Source: Verrucomicrobiota bacterium (GTDB taxonomy: Bacteria; Verrucomicrobiota; Verrucomicrobiia; Chthoniobacterales; SZAS-18). From it: DNA of 45,838 bases. Position numbers and translations under genes: made by a program. Within the stretch, counting starts at the first letter, position 1. Each line of letters opens with the position of its first letter. Below the pieces are notes generated by a model, which was not told the origin of the DNA, did no database searches, and saw only the letters and a list, made by a program, of their open reading frames with translations. This document shows positions 24,373 to 44,574 of this stretch, in pieces. The stretch is taken from assembly GCA_025353105.1 (NCBI GenBank), contig JANXRG010000065.1, forward strand, positions 1-45,838, given 5' to 3'.

Positions 24373-24422
24373 TTTTGTCTCGCTCTGAATCGGCACGATG
24401 CCCATATTCGCGCGACCCGCGC

Positions 24423-27173
24423 ATGGCAATGGCCACCACCACGACCACCTCGGGCGTTTCGCGTCCGCCTTCCGGCGACCAGCCGGTGCCGGAGGTTGAT
24501 CGCCGGAAGGGCGGCTATTCGCGACGGCTGTATCTCCGGCTGATCTGGATTTACATGCAGGGATCGCTGGTGGCGGTCGCGGTTTGCTTCCTCCTGTTTT
24601 ATCTCGGACTTGAGTTCACCGGCCGGCAGTGGTTCTTCTTTGCGGTTTCGATCCCGTGGGGCATGACGATCTACGTCGTGCCGGACATCTTTTTCATTCA
24701 CCGTAATTACCAGCGGATTGGGAAAGCACTGTCCGCGATCGACCGCGGCGAGGTCCCGCCGCCGGAGGACGTGTCACGCGCGATTGTCCGTGCGCTCAAC
24801 CTGCCGATGTACGCCTTTACGCGCGTGACGTTTTTTCATGGTCCCGGCGCTGCCATCGCGGGAATGATCATGACGCTGGGCGGAAATTACTTCTTCGATG
24901 GGCAGTTTCAGCCGTGGCAAATCTGGACCCTTTTCACGATCATCCTTTTCTTCGCGTCGCCGACGCACGGCATTTTTGAATTTTTCGCCGTTTCCGGCGC
25001 GGTCGCGCCCGCGCTCGAGCGTCTCTCGGCCCTGCCGGGCGGCGACATCAGCACCGACGAGCAGAAGGCCCGCCTCCGCTCGACCAGTCTTCGTCGAAAG
25101 CTCCTTTATCTGGCGGTATTCGTCACGGCCCTTCCGCTCGCTTTCTTCGCTTTGTCGATCGCCTTCAAGGTGACGCAACTCATCGGCCGGATGGGCGTGC
25201 AGCCAGCGCCCGGCCTGCTGCCAAATCTGTGGTGGTGGGTGGGGGGCGTCGTCTTCGTCTGCATGGTTGGCACGGTCATCATGGCCATCCTCACCGCGGG
25301 CGAAGTTTCGCGTTCCGCGGCGAAATTGCTCGAGGGCATGAAATGCATCGAACGGGGCGACCACAACGTTCATCTGCGCATCACGTCCACGGATGAATAC
25401 GCGGACCTCTTCCGGGGTTTCAACCTGATGACCGAGGGTCTGCGCGAGGAGGCAAAGATTCTGGGGCTCAGCCAGGATTTGATGGGGGAACTGCAGCTCG
25501 ATCCCCTGCTCGAGCGCATCATGCGCGCCAGCACGGATCTGCTGAACGCGGAGCGCAGCACGCTGTTCATCTACGATCGAAAGACGAAGGAACTCTGGAG
25601 CCGCTTCGCCGAGGGCCTCGGCCGGAAGGAAATCCGCTTTCCCTGCAACCAGGGCATCGCCGGCTCCGTCTTCACCTCCGGAAAAGCGGAAAACATCCCC
25701 GACCCCTACGCGGATTCTCGCTTCAACCAGGCCGTGGACCGGGCGACGGGTTTTCGCACGCGCTGCATTCTTGCGCTACCCGTGCTCAACAAGGCGGGCC
25801 AGCCCATCGGCGTGGTGGAGGTGCTCAACAAGCGCGGTGGGCAGTTCTCGCATCAGGACGAAAACCGGTTGCGCGCCTTTTCCGCGCAGGCCGCGATCTG
25901 TCTCGAGAACGCGCGGCTCTTCGACGAGGTGATCCAGATTCGAGACTACAACGAGAGCATTTTGCGCTCAACGAGCAACGGCATGCTCGCGCTCGACGCG
26001 AAGGGCGTGATCACTTCGGCAAATCCGTCGGCCGTGGAAATGTTCGGCGGCGGGACGATCGACGTCGCCATGCTGCTGGGCCAAAACGCGGCGGACGTCT
26101 TCCGCGAAAAGAACGCCTGGGTGGTGGCCAGCATCGAGAAGTTGGGGACCTCCGGCGATACCGATCTGAGCCCGGACGCGGATCTGCACCGGCCAAACGG
26201 CGAGGTGGCCTCCGTGAACATGACGGCGGTGCCGTTGCGCGAGGCCAATCAGAACATTGTCGGCACGCTGCTCATCTTCGAGGACCTCAGTGCCGAAAAG
26301 CGCGCGCGGACCACGATGGCGCGGTACATGAGCAAGGAAGTCGCGGATGAGCTGCTCGCCTCGGGCGGGCAGGCCCTGGAGGGTCGCGAACAGGAGATCA
26401 GCATCCTTTTTTCCGACATCTGCGGATTTACGAGCATCGCCGAGACGATCGGCCCGCGCGAGACCGTCTCAATGCTCAACGCCTATTTTGCCGAGATGGT
26501 GGAGGTAATCTTTCACCACGGCGGCATCCTGGACAAATACATCGGCGACGCCATCATGGCGCTCTTTGGTGCGCCCTTCGTCCGCCCGGGCGACGCCGAT
26601 CGAGCCCTGCTGTCCGCATGCGGCATGGCGTCGGCGTTGAAAGCCTTCAACGCGGCCCGCGCCAAGGCGGGGAGCCGGTTGATCAACATCGGCATCGGGC
26701 TCAACACCGGCCCCGCGATCCTGGGCAGCATTGGTTCGCCCAAGCGCATGGAGTACACGGCGATCGGCGACAGCGTGAATCTCGCCTCGCGACTCGAGGC
26801 GGCCACGCGGCTCTATGACGTCCAGATTCTCGTGGCCGAACCGACGATGAAATTGCTGGTCGAGAAACATCCCGTGCGCGAGATCGACCTGTTGCGCGTG
26901 AAGGGAAAGCAGCAGCCGGTGGCAGTGTTTGAAGCCCTGGGCCATCTCGCTCCGGAGGAATTAGCGGCGGCCACATCGGCGCATGCGGTGTTCGCCCAGG
27001 GCTTGGTGGGTTATCGGTCGGGTGATTTCAAGAGTGCGCTCGAGACCTTTGGCGAGTCGCTGCGGCTGAAGGCGGATGACGGTCCGAGCCGCCTCTACGT
27101 CACGCGCTGCCAGCACCACCTGGCCAATCCTCCGCCGGAATGGGATGGGGTGACCACGCTGAAAGAAAAGTAA
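24423..27173 (+). CDS. Membrane adenylate cyclase with HAMP, GAF and PAS domains
   Basis: A 916-residue class III cyclase. About six hydrophobic helices fill residues 30-310 (for example GSLVAVAVCFLLFYLGL, WTLFTIILFFASPTHGIF and WWWVGGVVFVCMVGTVIMAI), followed by a HAMP-like linker, a GAF domain (about 350-510, with FPCNQGIAGSVFTSGKAENI), a PAS-like segment (about 515-625) and the cyclase domain (about 655-840). Catalytic positions are all kept: metal aspartates D665 and D709, purine-selecting K705 and T779, transition-state N786 and R790. A Lys/Thr pair is typical of bacterial adenylate rather than guanylate cyclases. A short helical tail follows. The ATG at 24423 was chosen over an upstream TTG. 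It opens the signalling island. Confidence 0.9.
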   Translation: MAMATTTTTSGVSRPPSGDQPVPEVDRRKGGYSRRLYLRLIWIYMQGSLVAVAVCFLLFYLGLEFTGRQWFFFAVSIPWGMTIYVVPDIFFIHRNYQRIGKALSAIDRGEVPPPEDVSRAIVRALNLPMYAFTRVTFFHGPGAAIAGMIMTLGGNYFFDGQFQPWQIWTLFTIILFFASPTHGIFEFFAVSGAVAPALERLSALPGGDISTDEQKARLRSTSLRRKLLYLAVFVTALPLAFFALSIAFKVTQLIGRMGVQPAPGLLPNLWWWVGGVVFVCMVGTVIMAILTAGEVSRSAAKLLEGMKCIERGDHNVHLRITSTDEYADLFRGFNLMTEGLREEAKILGLSQDLMGELQLDPLLERIMRASTDLLNAERSTLFIYDRKTKELWSRFAEGLGRKEIRFPCNQGIAGSVFTSGKAENIPDPYADSRFNQAVDRATGFRTRCILALPVLNKAGQPIGVVEVLNKRGGQFSHQDENRLRAFSAQAAICLENARLFDEVIQIRDYNESILRSTSNGMLALDAKGVITSANPSAVEMFGGGTIDVAMLLGQNAADVFREKNAWVVASIEKLGTSGDTDLSPDADLHRPNGEVASVNMTAVPLREANQNIVGTLLIFEDLSAEKRARTTMARYMSKEVADELLASGGQALEGREQEISILFSDICGFTSIAETIGPRETVSMLNAYFAEMVEVIFHHGGILDKYIGDAIMALFGAPFVRPGDADRALLSACGMASALKAFNAARAKAGSRLINIGIGLNTGPAILGSIGSPKRMEYTAIGDSVNLASRLEAATRLYDVQILVAEPTMKLLVEKHPVREIDLLRVKGKQQPVAVFEALGHLAPEELAAATSAHAVFAQGLVGYRSGDFKSALETFGESLRLKADDGPSRLYVTRCQHHLANPPPEWDGVTTLKEK

Positions 27174-27198: not shown

Positions 27199-27711
27199 AT
27201 GTCCATGTCCACTTCCATTGCCGGGCTTCACGCCTTTCTCTTCACGGACATCGAGGGCTCGAGCGTTCGCTGGTTGAACCATCGTGCCGCGATGGACAAG
27301 GCCGTGGCGCGGCACGATGCGCTCATCCGCCGGGTTGTGGGCGAGTATGGCGGCAAGATTTTCAAGGCGGCCGGCGACGCGTTTTATGTTTCGTTTGCCC
27401 GGCCGGCTGACGCCGCCAATGCCGCCATCGCCCTGCAACGCGCGCTCATCGCGGAAGATTTCTCCGCCGTCGATGGAATAAAAGTCCGCATGGCGGTGCA
27501 TTTCGGCAGCGCGGAAAAGCGGGGCAAGGATTTTTTCGGTCCGGCCCTGAACCGCACGGCGCGCTTGCTGGACCTCGCCCACGGCGGGCAGATTCTCGTG
27601 ACCGCCTCGGCCGCGGAGGTGATTCAGGCGGAGCGTGACGTCGGTGCGACATTCGTCAAAGTGGGTGCCAACCCGCTCGATGATCCGGCGCAGGTGGTGG
27701 ACGTTCATTAA
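27199..27711 (+). CDS. Stand-alone class III adenylate cyclase domain (head of a split cyclase-TolB-TPR gene)
   Basis: A 170-residue protein that is nothing but a cyclase homology domain. All six positions are intact: D17 (FLFTDIEGSS) and D60 for metals, K56 and D111 (GKDFFGPALNRTARLL) for adenine, N118 and R122 for the transition state. It stops at TAA 27709-27711 after DPAQVVDVH. The very next codon in the same frame begins the transmembrane and sensor part encoded by 27712-29619, so the two were almost certainly one gene. As it stands the product would be a soluble cyclase without its sensor. AAGG at 27190-27193 is a fair ribosome site for the ATG at 27199. A close paralog head is seen at 29643. 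Confidence 0.85.
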   Translation: MSMSTSIAGLHAFLFTDIEGSSVRWLNHRAAMDKAVARHDALIRRVVGEYGGKIFKAAGDAFYVSFARPADAANAAIALQRALIAEDFSAVDGIKVRMAVHFGSAEKRGKDFFGPALNRTARLLDLAHGGQILVTASAAEVIQAERDVGATFVKVGANPLDDPAQVVDVH

Positions 27712-29619
27712 TTGGTTGCCAGCGATCTGCCCCGCGATTTTCCGCCGCTGCGCCGGCCGAAAAGTCATACCATCGACGGCGCGCGGGCCGGCTCCGGCGG
27801 ATGGCGTCGCTGGATCCTGGCCGTGCTTGCCGCAGGTGTCGCGCTCGCCGCATTCGCGGCGATGCGGTGGGCCCGGCGCGGGCCCGGCCCCGCGCCTGCT
27901 GCCTCCAGTCCGGTGGCGGTTGCACCGGTGGCGCAGGAAAAAAGCGTGGCGGTGCTCCCGTTCGAAAATCTCAGCAAGGAGGAGGAGAACGCGTTTTTCA
28001 CCAACGGCATCCAGGACGAGATCCTGACCAATCTCTCGCGCATCGCCGAGTTGAAGGTGATCAGCCGATCGTCCGTGACGCAGTACAAGGCCGGGGCGCC
28101 GCGGAATTTGCGGGAAATCGCGCCGGCCCTGGGTGTCGCCTACATTCTGGAGGGCAGCGTGCAGCGAATCGGCGGCAAGGTGCGCGTGACGGCCCAGCTC
28201 ATCGACGGACGGACGGACGGCCACGTTTGGGCCGAACGCTACGACCGTGATTTGGTGGATGTATTCGGGATCCAGACCGACATCGCGGAACAAATCGCGG
28301 CCCAACTCAAGGCGCGACTTTCCCCTGCGGAAAAGGCTGCGCTTACGGAACGACCGACGCGTGATCTCGCCGCCTACGAACTTTATCTACGGGCGCAGAA
28401 TTCGGCGGGGTCGATTCTTACCTTGGGTCGAAGCCGCGAAGAAAATGCGCAGAGTATCGCCTGGTTGAATGAGGCGGTCGCGCGCGATCCGAATTTTGTC
28501 GCAGCCTGGTGTGCGCTCGCCGCGCGGCACGATATGGCCTACTTTTCGGACGATGATCGCACGCCCGCGCGGCTGGGCCTGGCCCAGGCGGCGGTGGATG
28601 CCGCCGTGCGCGCGAAGCCCGAGGCGGGCGAAACGCAACTGGCGCTCGCCCTGCATGATTATTGGGGATTCCGCGACTACTCGAGCGCTCGGCGAAGACT
28701 TGACCTGGCGCGGCGCTCGCTACCGAACAACGCCCAGATATCATTCTTCACCGGACTGATCGATCGCCGGGAGGGTCGCTGGGAGGAGTCCAACCGAAAT
28801 CTGGAGCGCGCCTTGGAGCTGGATCCGCGCAGCCAGGAAATGATGATGGAGCTGGGCGTGAACAGTTACGTGCGCCAGCGGCGTTTCAACGATGCCCGCC
28901 GCGTCGTGGAGCGCCTCGAGGCTCTCGGAGTCAATGCGCCGGCGCCGCAGGTCATGCTGATTTCGCTGGAGATTGCGCGCGCGGCGGACATGAGCGCCAT
29001 GCGGCAATTCCTCGATGCCCAGTTTGCTTTGGCGGGGAGTCCGGCGTATGCCGTGTCGTACGAAGCCCTCGAACTCGCGATGTACCAACGCGATCCAAAT
29101 GCGGCCGAGCGCGCGCTTCGGTCCCGACAAGAGGGCGCGACCAAACCCGTCTACCTCTGGGGAACGCTGTATCCCTACGAATATTTTGCCGGCGTCATTG
29201 CCCGCTTCAGAAATGACGATGTGGCCGCTCAAGCCGGTTTCGAGGCAGCCCGGACCGAAACGGCGGCACTCGTGGCGCAACAACCGGACAATTCGTCGGC
29301 GGTGTCCCTGCTGGCGGTGATCGACTCCCAGCTTGGTCGCCATGATGACGCCTTGCGCGGCGCGCGGCGGGCCTGCGAGATCGTGCCGCTCGCGAGAGAT
29401 GCCCTGGTCGGAGCGGACCTTGAAACCGCTTTGGCGGAAGTCGAGGGCCGCGCCGGTCACATGGACCACGCGGTTGAGAGGTTGAAAAGGCTGAGCGAGA
29501 TTCCCAGCGAGATCAATTATGGAGATTTGAAACTGAACCCGGCGTGGGATCCGCTCCGGCAAGACCCGCGATTTCAAACTCTGGTTGACAGGCTCGCTCC
29601 CGAGAAACCGAAACGCTGA
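27712..29619 (+). CDS. TolB-like/TPR sensor half of a split cyclase gene
   Basis: An open frame of 635 codons that continues 27199-27711 in phase after a single TAA. It can only start with TTG directly after the stop, so it may be made by reinitiation, by readthrough, or not at all. Residues 30-52 are a membrane helix (WRRWILAVLAAGVALAAFAA) followed by an arginine-rich edge. Next comes the TolB-like domain (KSVAVLPFENLSKEEENAFF, then YILEGSVQRIGGKVRVTAQL, about 75-210), then about 400 residues of TPR-like helical repeats. The end LKLNPAWDPLRQDPRFQTLV is the tail signature shared by this family. In intact paralogs the same parts follow a cyclase or kinase head; the sensor is expected in the periplasm. 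Confidence 0.7.
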   Translation: MVASDLPRDFPPLRRPKSHTIDGARAGSGGWRRWILAVLAAGVALAAFAAMRWARRGPGPAPAASSPVAVAPVAQEKSVAVLPFENLSKEEENAFFTNGIQDEILTNLSRIAELKVISRSSVTQYKAGAPRNLREIAPALGVAYILEGSVQRIGGKVRVTAQLIDGRTDGHVWAERYDRDLVDVFGIQTDIAEQIAAQLKARLSPAEKAALTERPTRDLAAYELYLRAQNSAGSILTLGRSREENAQSIAWLNEAVARDPNFVAAWCALAARHDMAYFSDDDRTPARLGLAQAAVDAAVRAKPEAGETQLALALHDYWGFRDYSSARRRLDLARRSLPNNAQISFFTGLIDRREGRWEESNRNLERALELDPRSQEMMMELGVNSYVRQRRFNDARRVVERLEALGVNAPAPQVMLISLEIARAADMSAMRQFLDAQFALAGSPAYAVSYEALELAMYQRDPNAAERALRSRQEGATKPVYLWGTLYPYEYFAGVIARFRNDDVAAQAGFEAARTETAALVAQQPDNSSAVSLLAVIDSQLGRHDDALRGARRACEIVPLARDALVGADLETALAEVEGRAGHMDHAVERLKRLSEIPSEINYGDLKLNPAWDPLRQDPRFQTLVDRLAPEKPKR

Positions 29620-29642: not shown

Positions 29643-30017
29643 ATGGATTCGACCTCGAGATCATCCGCTGCGCTGTCCGCTTTTCTGTTCACGGACATCG
29701 AGGGCTCCAGCGTGCGCTGGCTGAACCATCGCGCCGCCATGGAGAAGGCGTCGGTTCACGCGATTTTTGGTGAGCAGGATGCCGCCCTGGAGATTGTCGC
29801 GGTCGTCACCGCGATCCCCGGGGGTCCGTCGTATGCCGATCTGGAGCTGGGCTACGCGGGGGATTCCCGGCCTGGTGATCCGCGCTTTGATGCGATGGTG
29901 GAGATGCGTGCGCCGAAGGAACCGCAGAAGTGTGTCGAAGGTCGAGTGACGAGGGTCGAGGGCCGGAAGTCGGAGGCACAGATTTGCCCTGCTCGACGGG
30001 GGATTAGGCGGAATTAA
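29643..30017 (+). pseudogene. Remnant of a cyclase-TolB-TPR gene joining head directly to tail
   Basis: A 124-codon frame whose first 36 residues (LSAFLFTDIEGSSVRWLNHR then AAMEKA) are nearly identical to the head at 27199. It then jumps straight to a typical TPR-sensor tail (GEQDAALEIVAVVTAIPGGP followed by SYADLELGYAGDSRPGDPRF). The rest of the cyclase, the membrane helix, the TolB-like domain and almost all TPRs are gone. Only one metal aspartate remains, so no cyclase activity is possible. The last 25 codons run into low-complexity and inverted-repeat DNA. The reading frame is kept across the join, so a small protein could still be made. It lies 23 bp after the split gene. Confidence 0.75.
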
Positions 30018-37964: not shown

Positions 37965-40900
37965 ATGCTTGACGATTCCGTTTATGCCCCCTTCTCAATC
38001 GCGCGCAGCGCGGACGGCACGCGCGTCGAGCTGGGGCGCGGGGCGATGGGCATCACGTACCGGGCCACCGACACGCAGCTTGGCCGGACGGTGGCTCTTA
38101 AGGTGATCAACGCGACGTATCTCGGCGATCCGATCGCGCGCCAGCGATTTCTCACCGAAGCGCGCGCTGCGGCGCAGTTGCATCATTCGAACGTGGCGGG
38201 CGTGTACCAACTACGCGCCGACGGCGAGGACATTTTCTATGCGATGGAATTCGTGGAAGGCGAAACAGTGGACGCGCACGTCCGGCGACGTGGCCCGCTG
38301 CCGTCGCGGCTCGCTCTGCGCATCATTCTGCAGGCCGCGCAGGGACTTGCTGCGGCCGATGCGCGCGGTCTGATTCATCGCGACATCAAACCGGCCAATT
38401 TGATGCTCGCGCAGGCGCCCGCGCCGGTGGGCGAGGGGATCGAGCATGAGGAGGAGGACGGCCTGCTGGTGAAGGTGATCGACTTCGGCCTGGCGAGGAG
38501 CGTGGGCGGAAATGAAACAGGCGGGGGATTGACAGGCGGCAACGTGGTGGGCACGCCATACTACATGAGTCCGGAGCAAATCTCTCCGGAGATGGGATCC
38601 ACGCTGGATTGCCGCAGCGACATCTACAGCCTCGGCGTCACACTCTGGTATTTGCTGGCGGGTCGCGCGCCGTTTGAAGGATCGCAATTCCAGATTCTCA
38701 GCCAGCACCTGCAGAAGCGTCCACCGCTTGAGCAACTAACCGACGTCGGCGTGCCAGCAGAGGTCGTCACGTTGATCGGCTCGATGCTCGCCAAGGACCG
38801 CGATGAACGGCCGGCGAACTATGCCGCCCTGATTGCCGCGCTGAAGAAGATTCTGCGAGGGGGCGGTTCCACCACGTTTGCCGCGGTGCCGCGGCGGGAG
38901 GGCGGGGACGCCACCATGGTGATGCCGTCGTCAGTAAGACCTTCCAGCAGCCAAATCGAGCCGCGGCAGATTCCGGAAAAGGTCGGCGGCAGCGGGCGTC
39001 CGACATGGCTGATCCCGGCTGCGTTGGGCGCCGCGGCGCTCGTGACGATGGCGATTTGGCAGCCGTGGCGAAGAGCGGTCCCGACGGGGGGCGACAGGCC
39101 GGCGGAATCTGCAGTGTTGAATCCGCAGGTTTCGGAGGCGCGGCGCCTGTCGGACCAGGCGCGTGCGCTGTTGATCAAGCCCGGCGGCGGGGCCACGAAA
39201 TACGACACCGCAGCGTTGTTGTGCGATCGCGCGCTCGCCTTGGATCCGACGGATGCGGACGCTTGGGCGATCGCGAGCCAGGTCGACACGAAGATGGCGT
39301 ATCATTCATTTGATCGATCGGAGAAGCGCCTCGAGAGCGCGCGCAGCAAAGCGGCCAGGGCGCTGAACCTGGCTCCGAACTCCTTCGAGGTCCGCCTCTC
39401 GCAAGCTGCCTACCTGTCCTATTTGACGGAACCGCCCATCTCCAACCAGGCCGAGCCCGTCTTGCGAGCGCTGCGCGACGAGAATCCGCGGGATTTCCGC
39501 GTCCATGATGCGCTGGGGGTGCTCCTCCGAACCCAAGGCCGTTTGGTGGAGGCGGTGGCGAGCTTTGACGATGCCGCGCAATTGCCGGGTGGAGCGGCGG
39601 GAGGATTGATTCAAAAGGCTTGGGCCCTTTACCGGCTTCGTCGCTACGCGGAATGCGAGGTGGCCCTCGACCAGTCGATCGCGATCGAGCCGCTGGCGGG
39701 CAGCATCTCACTCAAGATCTTCCTTGAACTAAGCTGGTACGGCGACCCCGACCGGGCGCTATCCACGCTGCGGAAGCTCCCGGCCTCCGAGTCGATGGAG
39801 GACGTTGGGGTCGCCGCGGCGATCCGGCTTTACACCTGGCGGCGGGAGCCGGCCGAGTTATTGAAATTGATGGCAACCGTGCCGCGGGAGTGGATCACCT
39901 GGTCGGTCTGGGGGCCGAAAGCCGCGCTCACGGGCGACGCCAACGCCGAGTTGAAGAGGCCGGCGGCGGCCCAGGCCGACTGGCAGAGCGCACTGGCGTT
40001 GATCGACCAGCGGCTGGTCGCCACGCCGAACGACCGCAACCTGCTGGAATGGAAAGCGTATGTGCTCGCCTCGCTCGGCGAAACCGGGAAGGCCGCCGAA
40101 ATGTGGGAACGTGCCCGACAAATTCCGAAAGCCAATATCGCCGTGTTCGCGATCGAACGGATTCAGCGACTGGCCTCACCGGACGCGGTCATCGACGAAC
40201 TCGAGCGACGTGCGAAAGTTGCCAGTGAATCCCTGGATCGCGGCGAGCCGGTGATCGATGGCATCATCAGCGCCGCAGACCTGCGGCTGAATCCAGCGTG
40301 GGATCAAGCGCGAGGGTTGCAGCGCTTCCAGGCCCTGCAAGCCAGGCTTGAGGCTGATCCGCGCTTCTCGCCAAAGTCAAAAGCGCCGGACGCCCGGAAC
40401 GCGTCCGCCGTCGATCCGAAATCCGTCGCGGTGATGGCGTTTGAGAATTTGAGCGACGACAAGTCGAATGAATATTTCTCCGACGGGATCAGCGAGGAAC
40501 TGCTGACCGTGCTGCAAAAAATCCCGGGCTTGCGCGTCGCCGCCCGGACCTCGGCGTTTTCGTTCAAGGGCAAGAACGCCACGGCGCGAGAGATTGGGCA
40601 GCAACTGGGCGTGGCGCAGTTGGTCGAGGGCAGTGTGCGCAAATCCGGGAGCAGCGTACGCATCGCCGCGCGACTCAGCCGCGCCGACACGGGCGAGCAG
40701 ATTTGGTCGGAGAATTACACGCGAGACTTGAAGGATGTCTTCGCGGTGCAGACGGAGATTGCGCAGACCATCCTGGAGCAGTTGCGTGGAAGGTTCGATG
40801 GCGCGCCCGGTGGCGCCGCGGTGAAGGCGCAGATTCAGTCGCAGGTGAAGGCGGCGGAGAAGGGCGGCACGAAAAGCGTGGAGGCCTACCAGCATTACCT

Positions 40901-41831
40901 GCGCGGTCGCTTTCAGGAGAACCAGTTCTCCAGCGAGGGCCTGGCCAACGCGCTCGTCTCGTACCGCAAGGCCGTGGAACTGGATCCGGGTTTTGCGCTC
41001 GGCTGGGCGGCGCTTTCGGAAACGTATTCGCTGCAGACCGGGTGGGACTCGGGCGATCAACCTTTGGAGGAGGGTTTCAAACGGGCGCGCGAGGCGGTGG
41101 ACCGCGCGGTGGCGTTGGAGCCGAATTTGGCGGAGGCGTTACTGGCGCTGGGACGCCTGCAGATCTGGCACGACTTCGATTGGCGGGGCGGAAAGGCGTC
41201 GGCGCGCCGGGCGTTGGAACTCGCCCCATCCAGCGCGCAGGGGCTGGGCTTCCTGGCTGAGTGCGAGGCCGCCGTGGGAAACGTCGAGCGGGCGCTTGAA
41301 CTCGGGCGCCAGGCGATCACGCTCGATCCGTTGAATCCGGAAATTCGCCTGAATCATGGGATTTATCTCAGCCAACGCGGCCCGTATGCCGAGGCGGCGG
41401 ACGAGTTCCGCCGAACCCTCGAGATCACGCCGAACGCCATCGGCGCGCGGGCCAACTGGAGCACCGCGGCCCTCTTGGATGGCCAAGTGGATGAGGCGGT
41501 CGCCATCGCGGAGAAGGATACCCCTGGGTGGGGCCGGGCTTATGCCTTGAGCCTCGCGTACTGGCAGCAGGGCCGCAGAGCCGAGGCGGACGCGCAATTA
41601 CGAGCACTCGAAGATTCGTTTGCGCAGGCCGCAGCCTACCAGGTCGGCGAGGTTTATGCGTATCGCGGCGAGTCAGACAAGGCCTTTGCCTGGCTTGACC
41701 GCGCGTACCAACAGCGAGACCCCGGAATCGTTTACCTGAAGCTGGATCGGCTGCTCTTGAGTTTGCACGCGGACCCGCGCTGGGCCGCGCTGATGCATCG
41801 GGCGGGTCTCGCCGACGATCGGTCGAAATGA
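37965..41831 (+). CDS. Giant Ser/Thr kinase with two successive TPR sensor halves (chimeric)
   Basis: A 1288-residue protein. The kinase head (about 15-300; K46, HRDIKPANL at 138-146, DFG 173-175) is nearly the same as that at 31265. A membrane helix follows (WLIPAALGAAALVTMAIWQP, about 348-367). Residues 380-800 are TPR-like repeats without a TolB-like domain and end in ADLRLNPAWDQARGLQRFQA, which resembles the terminal signature of sibling proteins. A second sensor then begins at about 820 with the TolB-like domain (KSVAVMAFENLSDDKSNEYF) and further TPRs to the end (LHADPRWAALMHRAGLADDR). The layout fits fusion of two family members. Kinase residues are intact. It starts 45 bp after the soluble cyclase gene. 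Confidence 0.9.
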   Translation: MLDDSVYAPFSIARSADGTRVELGRGAMGITYRATDTQLGRTVALKVINATYLGDPIARQRFLTEARAAAQLHHSNVAGVYQLRADGEDIFYAMEFVEGETVDAHVRRRGPLPSRLALRIILQAAQGLAAADARGLIHRDIKPANLMLAQAPAPVGEGIEHEEEDGLLVKVIDFGLARSVGGNETGGGLTGGNVVGTPYYMSPEQISPEMGSTLDCRSDIYSLGVTLWYLLAGRAPFEGSQFQILSQHLQKRPPLEQLTDVGVPAEVVTLIGSMLAKDRDERPANYAALIAALKKILRGGGSTTFAAVPRREGGDATMVMPSSVRPSSSQIEPRQIPEKVGGSGRPTWLIPAALGAAALVTMAIWQPWRRAVPTGGDRPAESAVLNPQVSEARRLSDQARALLIKPGGGATKYDTAALLCDRALALDPTDADAWAIASQVDTKMAYHSFDRSEKRLESARSKAARALNLAPNSFEVRLSQAAYLSYLTEPPISNQAEPVLRALRDENPRDFRVHDALGVLLRTQGRLVEAVASFDDAAQLPGGAAGGLIQKAWALYRLRRYAECEVALDQSIAIEPLAGSISLKIFLELSWYGDPDRALSTLRKLPASESMEDVGVAAAIRLYTWRREPAELLKLMATVPREWITWSVWGPKAALTGDANAELKRPAAAQADWQSALALIDQRLVATPNDRNLLEWKAYVLASLGETGKAAEMWERARQIPKANIAVFAIERIQRLASPDAVIDELERRAKVASESLDRGEPVIDGIISAADLRLNPAWDQARGLQRFQALQARLEADPRFSPKSKAPDARNASAVDPKSVAVMAFENLSDDKSNEYFSDGISEELLTVLQKIPGLRVAARTSAFSFKGKNATAREIGQQLGVAQLVEGSVRKSGSSVRIAARLSRADTGEQIWSENYTRDLKDVFAVQTEIAQTILEQLRGRFDGAPGGAAVKAQIQSQVKAAEKGGTKSVEAYQHYLRGRFQENQFSSEGLANALVSYRKAVELDPGFALGWAALSETYSLQTGWDSGDQPLEEGFKRAREAVDRAVALEPNLAEALLALGRLQIWHDFDWRGGKASARRALELAPSSAQGLGFLAECEAAVGNVERALELGRQAITLDPLNPEIRLNHGIYLSQRGPYAEAADEFRRTLEITPNAIGARANWSTAALLDGQVDEAVAIAEKDTPGWGRAYALSLAYWQQGRRAEADAQLRALEDSFAQAAAYQVGEVYAYRGESDKAFAWLDRAYQQRDPGIVYLKLDRLLLSLHADPRWAALMHRAGLADDRSK

Positions 41832-41868: not shown

Positions 41869-43410
41869 ATGACCAACGATCCCAAACCACATCTCTTCAC
41901 GAAAGGCAGTCGCGTCGGTCCCTACGAGATCACGTCGCCCATCGGTGCGGGCGGCATGGGCGAGGTGTTCCGCGCGCGGGACACGCGGCTGAATCGCGAC
42001 GTGGCGGTGAAAGTGTTGCCCAGGGATTTTGGGGCGGACGGGGACCGGCTGCGGCGCTTCGAGCAGGAGGCGAAGACGCTCGCGGCCCTGAATCATTCGA
42101 ACGTGCTGACCATTCACGATACCGGGGTTCATGAAGGCGCGCCGTATCTCGTCAGTGAATTGCTCGAGGGCAAATCGCTGCGCGAGGAGATGAGCGGCGG
42201 GGCGTTGCCGGTGCGCAAGGCCACCGAGTACGCGCTGCAAATCGCGCATGGCTTGGCGGCGGCGAATGGCAAGGGAGTGATTCATCGCGACCTGAAGCCG
42301 GAAAACATTTTCGTCACCAAGGACGGACGGGTGAAGATTCTGGATTTCGGGCTGGCGAAGCAGCGCGCGCCCTTGCCCATCGGGGACGAGCGGGGCAGGC
42401 AGGAGGCAGCCACCATCCCCATCGACCCGGACGCTATCGTGAACACCACGCAGCCGGGGATGGTGCTGGGCACACCTTCCTACATGTCGCCGGAGCAGGT
42501 GCGCGGCGAACCGGCGGATCATCGCGCGGACATTTTCGCCTTCGGCTGTGTGCTTTACGAAATGCTCAGCGGCACGCGCGCGTTTCGGCGCAGGACGCCG
42601 GTCGAGAGCATGAACGCGGTGTTGAACAGCACGCCAGCGGACCTCAGCACGACGCATCCCAACATCCCGCTGGCGCTGGCGCGCATCGTCGAGCGCTGCC
42701 TGGAAAAGCAGCCGGACAACCGCTTCCAGTCGGCCAAGGACCTGGCTTTCGCGTTGGAGAATCTCTCCGACCCCACCTCGGTCTCGGCGCGCGTGCTCCA
42801 AGGGAAGGCGGCCCCGCGCTGGCTCTCGCGCGAGGGCCTGGCATGGGCGACGGCGGCGCTCCTGCTCACGCTGCTGGCTTTGGCCGGGATCAGCCTTCGC
42901 CGCCAGCCGGCGGCTGCCCAGCCGACGCTTCGCCTGTCGATCGCGCCACCGGCGGATTGCCAAGATAGTGATTTTGCACTCTCGCCAGATGGCCGGTACC
43001 TCGCGTTTACCGCGGCGTTGGCGGACAAAGTGGTGCTGATGATCCGAACACTCGCTTCGGACGAGATCCGGACCGTTCCTGATGTGAGCCGTGCGAGTGC
43101 CCTGTTTTGGTCGCCCGATAGCCGGTTCATCGGATATTACGAGAGTGCGGCGAAACTGAAGGCCGCGCCGGTGAACGGAGGTCGCCCGCGGGAGATTTGC
43201 AGCGCCCGGGGAGGCGGAGCCACCTGGAACCAGGATGGAGTGATTGTCTTCACGGAGTTCTGGGGAGGCGGGCTGTTCCGGGTGTCCGCCGGGGGCGGGG
43301 ACGTGACGCCGCTGACGACCTTGAACACGGCGGAACAGGAAGGCGTGCACCTCTGGCCACGCTTTCTCCCGGACGGCCGTCACTTCTTGTTCCTGGTCCG
43401 GCGCACGTAG
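41869..43410 (+). CDS. Ser/Thr kinase with membrane helix, ended early by an in-frame TAG (first half of a split kinase-propeller gene)
   Basis: A 513-residue Hanks kinase of a different subtype from the two TPR kinases: glycine loop IGAGGMGEVFRARD, VAVKVL, HRDLKPENIF, DFGLAK and TPSYMSPEQVRGEPADHRAD, then a membrane helix (WATAALLLTLLALAGISL, about 324-341) and the first blades of a PD40/TolB-type beta-propeller (ALSPDGRYLAF, LFWSPDSRFIGYY). It ends at TAG 43408-43410 after FLFLVRRT. The same frame continues open to 44574 with more propeller blades, so the full gene would encode about 901 residues. The kinase and membrane parts are complete, and the truncated protein might still signal. It follows the giant kinase by 37 bp. 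Confidence 0.85.
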   Translation: MTNDPKPHLFTKGSRVGPYEITSPIGAGGMGEVFRARDTRLNRDVAVKVLPRDFGADGDRLRRFEQEAKTLAALNHSNVLTIHDTGVHEGAPYLVSELLEGKSLREEMSGGALPVRKATEYALQIAHGLAAANGKGVIHRDLKPENIFVTKDGRVKILDFGLAKQRAPLPIGDERGRQEAATIPIDPDAIVNTTQPGMVLGTPSYMSPEQVRGEPADHRADIFAFGCVLYEMLSGTRAFRRRTPVESMNAVLNSTPADLSTTHPNIPLALARIVERCLEKQPDNRFQSAKDLAFALENLSDPTSVSARVLQGKAAPRWLSREGLAWATAALLLTLLALAGISLRRQPAAAQPTLRLSIAPPADCQDSDFALSPDGRYLAFTAALADKVVLMIRTLASDEIRTVPDVSRASALFWSPDSRFIGYYESAAKLKAAPVNGGRPREICSARGGGATWNQDGVIVFTEFWGGGLFRVSAGGGDVTPLTTLNTAEQEGVHLWPRFLPDGRHFLFLVRRT

Positions 43411-44574
43411 CCGGAATCCACCTTCATTTGGCTGGGGTCGACGAACACCGCCGAGCCTCGCCGGCGGTTAATCCAGGCCGACGCGCTCGTGGGCTGGGTG
43501 GATCCCGATCAAGTCTTGTTCGTTCGTGGCGGCGCGCTGCACGCCCAGACGTTCGACGCCAAGCTGCTCACCTTTGTCGGGTCGCCACGGGTGGTAGCTG
43601 ATCTGGTGGCTTTCCAATCAGAAGACTCCGTTGCGCAAGCGACCTGTTCCCGAAACGGAATCCTGGCCTACAAGGAGAAGCATTTTCCGACGGGCCATTT
43701 GACCTGGCTCGATCGCACGGGCCAGCCAGTCGGGACGGTCGGTCAACCGATGACCATCCACTCTTTCCGGCTCGCCCCGGATGAACGAACCGTTGCCGTC
43801 TCGAAATTCGATCGCCGGGCGGGCGCATGGAATTTGTGGCAAGTCGATGCTGCGAACGGGACGGAAGATCGCCTGACCTTCCTGCGCAATGCGCAGAGGC
43901 CGGTCTGGTCGCCGGATGGCTCTGAGATCATCTACGATTCCGACGAGTTCACGATGTTCAATGTGTACCGTCGGCGGGTGGACAGAACGACGCCGGAACA
44001 ACCCATCTACCGAACTGCGATGGACGACAAGCTTCCGACCGACTGGTCGAGCGACGGCCGACATCTGCTCTTCTCGCAACGCACCGAGAAGAACGCCACC
44101 GACATCTGGTTCCTTTCGCTCGAAGACCCTTCCCATCCCCAACCGTTGCTGCGGACGGAAGCAGATGAGATGAACGCCCGATTTTCCCCCGATGGCCGCT
44201 GGATCGCGTACAGCTCAAATGAGTCCGGTCGTCCCCAGGTGTATTTACAGACGTTTCCCAAAGGTGGTTCGCGCATCATCGTGTCGCGCGACGGCGGCGC
44301 TCTGCCGGTCTGGAATCCGAATGGCAAGGAACTCTTCTTCCTCGATCCGGAGCGCACGCTCCTTTCCGTGGAGATCAAGTCCGACGACTCGGGGGCGATG
44401 AAACCCGGCGCGCCCAAGCCGCTCTTTCGCCGACCCGCCAACGCCACGTCACGGATCGATAGCTACGACGTTTCGCGCGATGGCCAGCGCTTCCTCTTCG
44501 CGCTCGATGCGCCTTCGCCCGGCTCCGAAAATATCGCAGTCCTCTTGAACTGGGTGGGAGAGTCGAATCGATGA
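43411..44574 (+). pseudogene. Propeller half of the split kinase gene, after the in-frame TAG
   Basis: The frame of 41869-43410 continues without interruption from 43411 (PESTFIWLGSTNTAEPRRRL) to the TGA at 44574. It contains PD40-type blades PVWSPDGSEIIYDSD, DWSSDGRHLLFSQR, ARFSPDGRWIAYSSNESGRP, and the typical end VSRDGQRFLFALDAPSPGSE. Within it the first usable start is GTG 43489, which would give 361 residues but no signal sequence or membrane helix, so an independent periplasmic product is unlikely. Translation by readthrough of the TAG cannot be excluded. It overlaps the next remnant by ATGA. Confidence 0.7.

Follow-up and report, generated by a model that had tools for sequence, protein, structure and literature searches.

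One copy of a duplicated gene for a fused cyclase-membrane helix-TolB-like-TPR protein was probably split by a recent nonsense mutation, CAA to TAA, and is now in early decay, a reading to which we assign a probability of about 0.7. The split copy lies in a stretch of 45,838 nucleotides, analysed here as a whole (the window), which is contig C119 of a 3.72-Mb assembly. A first-pass annotation of this DNA had described a single in-frame TAA between a cyclase and a membrane part near 27700-27720, and this was confirmed. The head (27199-27711, + strand) starts with ATG, encodes a class III nucleotidyl cyclase catalytic domain of 170 residues and ends with ...DPAQVVDVH at the TAA (27709-27711, + strand). 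As had also been stated, the same frame then stays open for 635 codons, from the TTG at 27712 to a TGA at 29617-29619. This tail ORF (27712-29619, + strand) contains a linker, one hydrophobic helix, a TolB-like domain and a TPR array. Head and tail are read in the identical frame, with no further stop or frameshift across 805 codons. At the local base composition, a stop-free run of 635 codons would arise by chance with a probability of about 3e-5; it also contains TPR matches and can be aligned over its full length with a fused paralogue.

This paralogue, in the same genome (G000:C85:44506-46905, hereafter C85), is intact and encodes 802 residues in the order cyclase, transmembrane helix, TolB-like domain and TPR. 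The split copy shares 78% identity with it in the head and 50% in the tail, and has the same domain order and the same linker; the difference is that C85 is a single intact frame with CAA (Gln) where the split copy has its stop. In the codon alignment, C85 reads GTC CTG CAA TTG GTC against GTT CAT TAA TTG GTT in the window, with the TTGGT after the stop conserved. Gln also occupies the stop column in C107 and in members from other genera or phyla (G002, G014, G269 and the actinobacterial L044, L045 and L054), of which the last six have only the cyclase and linker in common with the split gene. Indeed, no other relative that was aligned or matched, cyclase-ATPase proteins of other phyla among them, has a residue other than Gln in this column. 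The alignment with a fused relative that had been proposed as a check on the residue at the stop thus named Gln, in agreement with the earlier suggestion of a C-to-T change in a Gln codon, and relatives that always carry two genes at this point were not found in the genomes searched, the intact copy being fused. One C-to-T change turning CAA into TAA is the simplest history on these alignments, and we regard the origin of the stop as close to settled. C85 also supplies one mark of a pseudogene by nonsense mutation, namely an unbroken homologue that reads a sense codon where the stop stands.

The order of events can be read from the codons directly after the stop, which encode the cyclase-family linker LVxxxLPxxFPPL; its remaining part, LVASDLPRDFPPL (27712-27750, + strand), was recognised by motif comparison and opens the tail ORF. 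The linker QLxxxxLPxxFPPL was present in cyclase-headed relatives, C85 included, but absent from all other TolB-TPR ORFs compared. Since the tail ORF opens with a cyclase linker, the cyclase and the tail were fused first and split later, and an ancestral two-gene state, a pair awaiting fusion, is ruled out. Judged by this linker and by the Gln at the site, the ancestral form is the fused one, which C85 still preserves intact. Among 388 genomes of the phylum, and within the family and genus searched, no other genome combined this type of cyclase head with a TolB-like tail. The nearest candidates for orthologues in the genus and family had at most 42% identity, and a contig scan for relatives returned distant cyclases only.

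The head was assigned to the class III cyclases by a match to Pfam Guanylate_cyc PF00211 (E 2.1e-8; 34.4 bits against a cut-off of 21.9) and to the structure of Ma1120 (E 3e-19). It resembles Ma1120-type cyclases (PDB 4wp8) in the core, over residues 12-142, and in the positions of the metal Asp, Lys and Asp, but it differs from them in deriving from an anchored multidomain protein and in ending within the last strand. Every catalytic residue had been described as kept, and all six class III positions are indeed present: D17, K56, D60, D111, N118 and R122, comprising the two metal Asp, the substrate Lys and Asp and the transition-state Asn and Arg. The Lys/Asp pair suggests that the substrate is ATP, in which case cAMP would be the product, and the genome contains 12 cNMP-binding matches. 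An AlphaFold2 model of the head (mean pLDDT 79) had an alpha/beta order compatible with the cyclase fold, a last strand at residues 164-168 and low confidence (about 57-61) for the 20 C-terminal residues. By this model, the stop falls on the final predicted beta strand, where the cyclase domain ends, not in a free linker beyond it, and the alignment suggests that the lost Gln-Leu-Val lengthens this strand in relatives.

The tail matched Pfam TPR and NCBIfam TPR_END_plus (E 1.6e-11). A putative transmembrane helix, WILAVLAAGVALAAFAAM (27811-27864, + strand), was picked by eye from the translation. The TolB-like domain of N-terminal type (27937-28326, + strand) matched TIGR02800 with an E of 2.5e-5, and this match was confined to the N-terminal part of the model and reached 23.4 bits against a cut-off of 343, far from the full score of a TolB propeller protein. 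The stretch is therefore weak by curated models and clear by its paralogues, and to call the TolB-like/TPR part a sensor is a guess.

Both halves could still be made despite the stop. The TTG adjoining it (27712-27714, + strand) had been proposed as a restart codon, and it does touch the stop (TAATTG, 0 nt), with a Shine-Dalgarno-like stretch, AGGTGGTGG (27692-27700, + strand), 11 nt before it. A second protein made by termination-reinitiation at this TTG is possible, and the gene might then have undergone functional fission, one mRNA giving a soluble cyclase and a reinitiated membrane TolB-like/TPR protein that may still pair, or a cyclase that may run free. Translational coupling is most effective at stop-start spacings of -4 to +3 nt (PMC12548453; PMC10666635), and the spacing here lies within that range. 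The duplex of AGGTGGTGG with the anti-Shine-Dalgarno sequence (-10.6 kcal/mol) beats 94% of in-gene positions and the stretch is absent from C85, but equally strong matches occur by chance at 5.8% of in-gene positions, about 1 in 17. The tail frame is intact, and other TolB-TPR proteins of the order lack the cyclase head, which indicates that the tail can stand alone. Against this, TTG is a weak start codon, the cyclase loses part of its last strand to the stop, the adjacent copy is in decay, and a conserved two-gene homologue, as expected of a coupled pair, was not found in the genomes searched. We therefore consider functional fission unlikely, and more doubtful still is its selective version, in which the stop was kept because one mRNA then yields two proteins in place of a membrane-tethered cyclase, namely a free cyclase and an envelope partner made by reinitiation.

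Occasional decoding of the TAA, frequent enough to yield the full-length protein, is far less probable. The frame and both halves are intact, and read-through has been proposed for in-frame stops in otherwise constrained bacterial genes, in which the leaky codon was TGA and not TAA (PMC7918605). Simple folds around the stop showed no recoding element. A TAA followed by T, as here, is an efficient terminator. Reassignment of TAA to Gln in this organism would suit the two frames in the window that are each broken by a stop, one of which stands at a Gln position, but the predicted genes of the window use TAA, TAG and TGA alike as ends and the gene upstream of the head terminates at a TAA, so stop usage rules it out.

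That upstream gene (24375-27173, + strand) is a separate, full HAMP-GAF-PAS-cyclase gene and a probable operon neighbour; its terminal TAA lies 25 nt before the head ATG, in another frame than the head, and the two are likely co-transcribed. Downstream of the tail lies the remnant ORF of a second copy (29643-30017, + strand), identified by blastn to C85 and by translation, with homology over 29671-29919. Here the first ~33 cyclase residues are joined in frame to the 3' end of the gene, with 2,124 bp lost internally at a junction between two GGC triplets, a 3-bp repeat. The remnant matched C85 at 91% over 78 bp and 81% over 175 bp, and is nearer to C85 than to the split copy. With the neighbouring copy shortened by 2,124 bp, the locus is shedding copies, and the loss of the greater part of that second tandem copy is our reason for placing the locus in early decay. 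The first-pass annotation had suggested that the head might act as an uncontrolled soluble cyclase. The head is cut short before its last strand is complete, and the copy next to it survives as a deletion remnant; an active or uncontrolled soluble enzyme is therefore no more likely than simple decay. Evidence against decay comes from the undamaged tail frame, and from the zero-spaced restart codon with its Shine-Dalgarno-like stretch, which also fit a working two-gene arrangement.

The locus belongs to a dense array of signalling genes (24375-45837), and the window holds 5 of the genome's 15 Guanylate_cyc matches; the genome also has about 38 strong protein kinase matches. Within the array, a gene at 37965-41831 encodes a kinase-TPR-TolB-like-TPR protein of 1288 residues that resembles two sensor tails behind one kinase. 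A Ser/Thr kinase-TM-propeller frame (41869-44574), otherwise open over 926 codons, is broken by a TAG at 43408-43410 (RRT*PESTF), where the lost residue could not be named from the relatives found, all of them too distant. Single in-frame stops were also seen in two other TolB-TPR members of this genome (G000:C116:44251-46008, TGA; G000:C19:5622-6704, TAG) and in a few TolB-TPR copies of related genomes.

An error in sequencing or assembly, or a minority allele from a strain mixture, would leave the organism with an intact fused gene. The assembly is in 121 contigs, apparent pseudogenes in assemblies are often errors (PMC11017572), and the TAG break is a second single-stop break on the same contig. 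However, the assembly is estimated at 97.6% completeness and 0.04% contamination, and the adjoining copy carries a real 2.1-kb deletion. Among consensus errors, moreover, single substitutions such as this change are less common than indels. A coding-potential test on ~318 kb from other contigs found no clear excess of in-frame breaks, in a scan so rough that standard thresholds missed both known breaks and both were forced into the list. An artefact is thus a rather small possibility, and with few similar breaks in the ~318 kb the pattern may be local to the signalling-gene array.

Constraint on the split copy was assessed against C85. The dN/dS values were 0.18 for the head, 0.16 for the TolB-like domain and 0.36 for the TPR region, each an average over a long history. 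Relative-rate counts were 11 against 8 in the head and mostly balanced in the tail, without clear acceleration of the split copy, the split being known in one genome. The low dN/dS and the lack of a clear rate excess indicate that the split copy was constrained for most of its history. Because the 805 codons contain no additional stop, a neutral age above ~2% substitutions is unlikely, assuming an indel rate of 0.1 per substitution. The nonsense mutation is accordingly placed as recent, since there is no further stop or frameshift, no acceleration relative to the paralogue, and no loss among the six catalytic residues.

In the sequence of events that we propose, a duplicated fused gene would be the starting state, and the C-to-T change would cut one copy. 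The head is probably still translated, giving a soluble protein of ~170 residues that lacks the end of its last beta strand, while the tail would be made weakly, through reinitiation at the adjoining TTG, or not at all. Cyclase output would thus be disconnected from the envelope part.

A literature search on cyclase-TolB-TPR proteins gave no useful paper. Two further groups, besides C85 and the Ma1120 type, offer close comparisons. Cyclase-ATPase proteins (L057-L060 and L084; the mycobacterial L045 and L054) share a homologous head, the linker QLxxPxLPxxFPPL and the invariant Gln, whereas their C-terminal part is of ATPase type and that of the split gene is TM-TolB-like-TPR. In bacterial pseudogenes that carry one internal stop (PMC11017572, PMC7918605), a frame otherwise under constraint has likewise taken a single nonsense change, but in the split gene the stop lies at the edge of a domain and is directly followed by a start codon. 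Taken alone, the split gene is an ordinary case of early decay of a duplicated gene. It is nevertheless a clean example of a fused signalling gene that is starting to split or die, in which one genome holds the ancestral codon, an intact sister and a more decayed sister. If the stop were kept by selection, this would be gene fission seen at its first step. The locus also offers a possible small-scale test of whether two working genes can arise where a stop is directly followed by a start codon.
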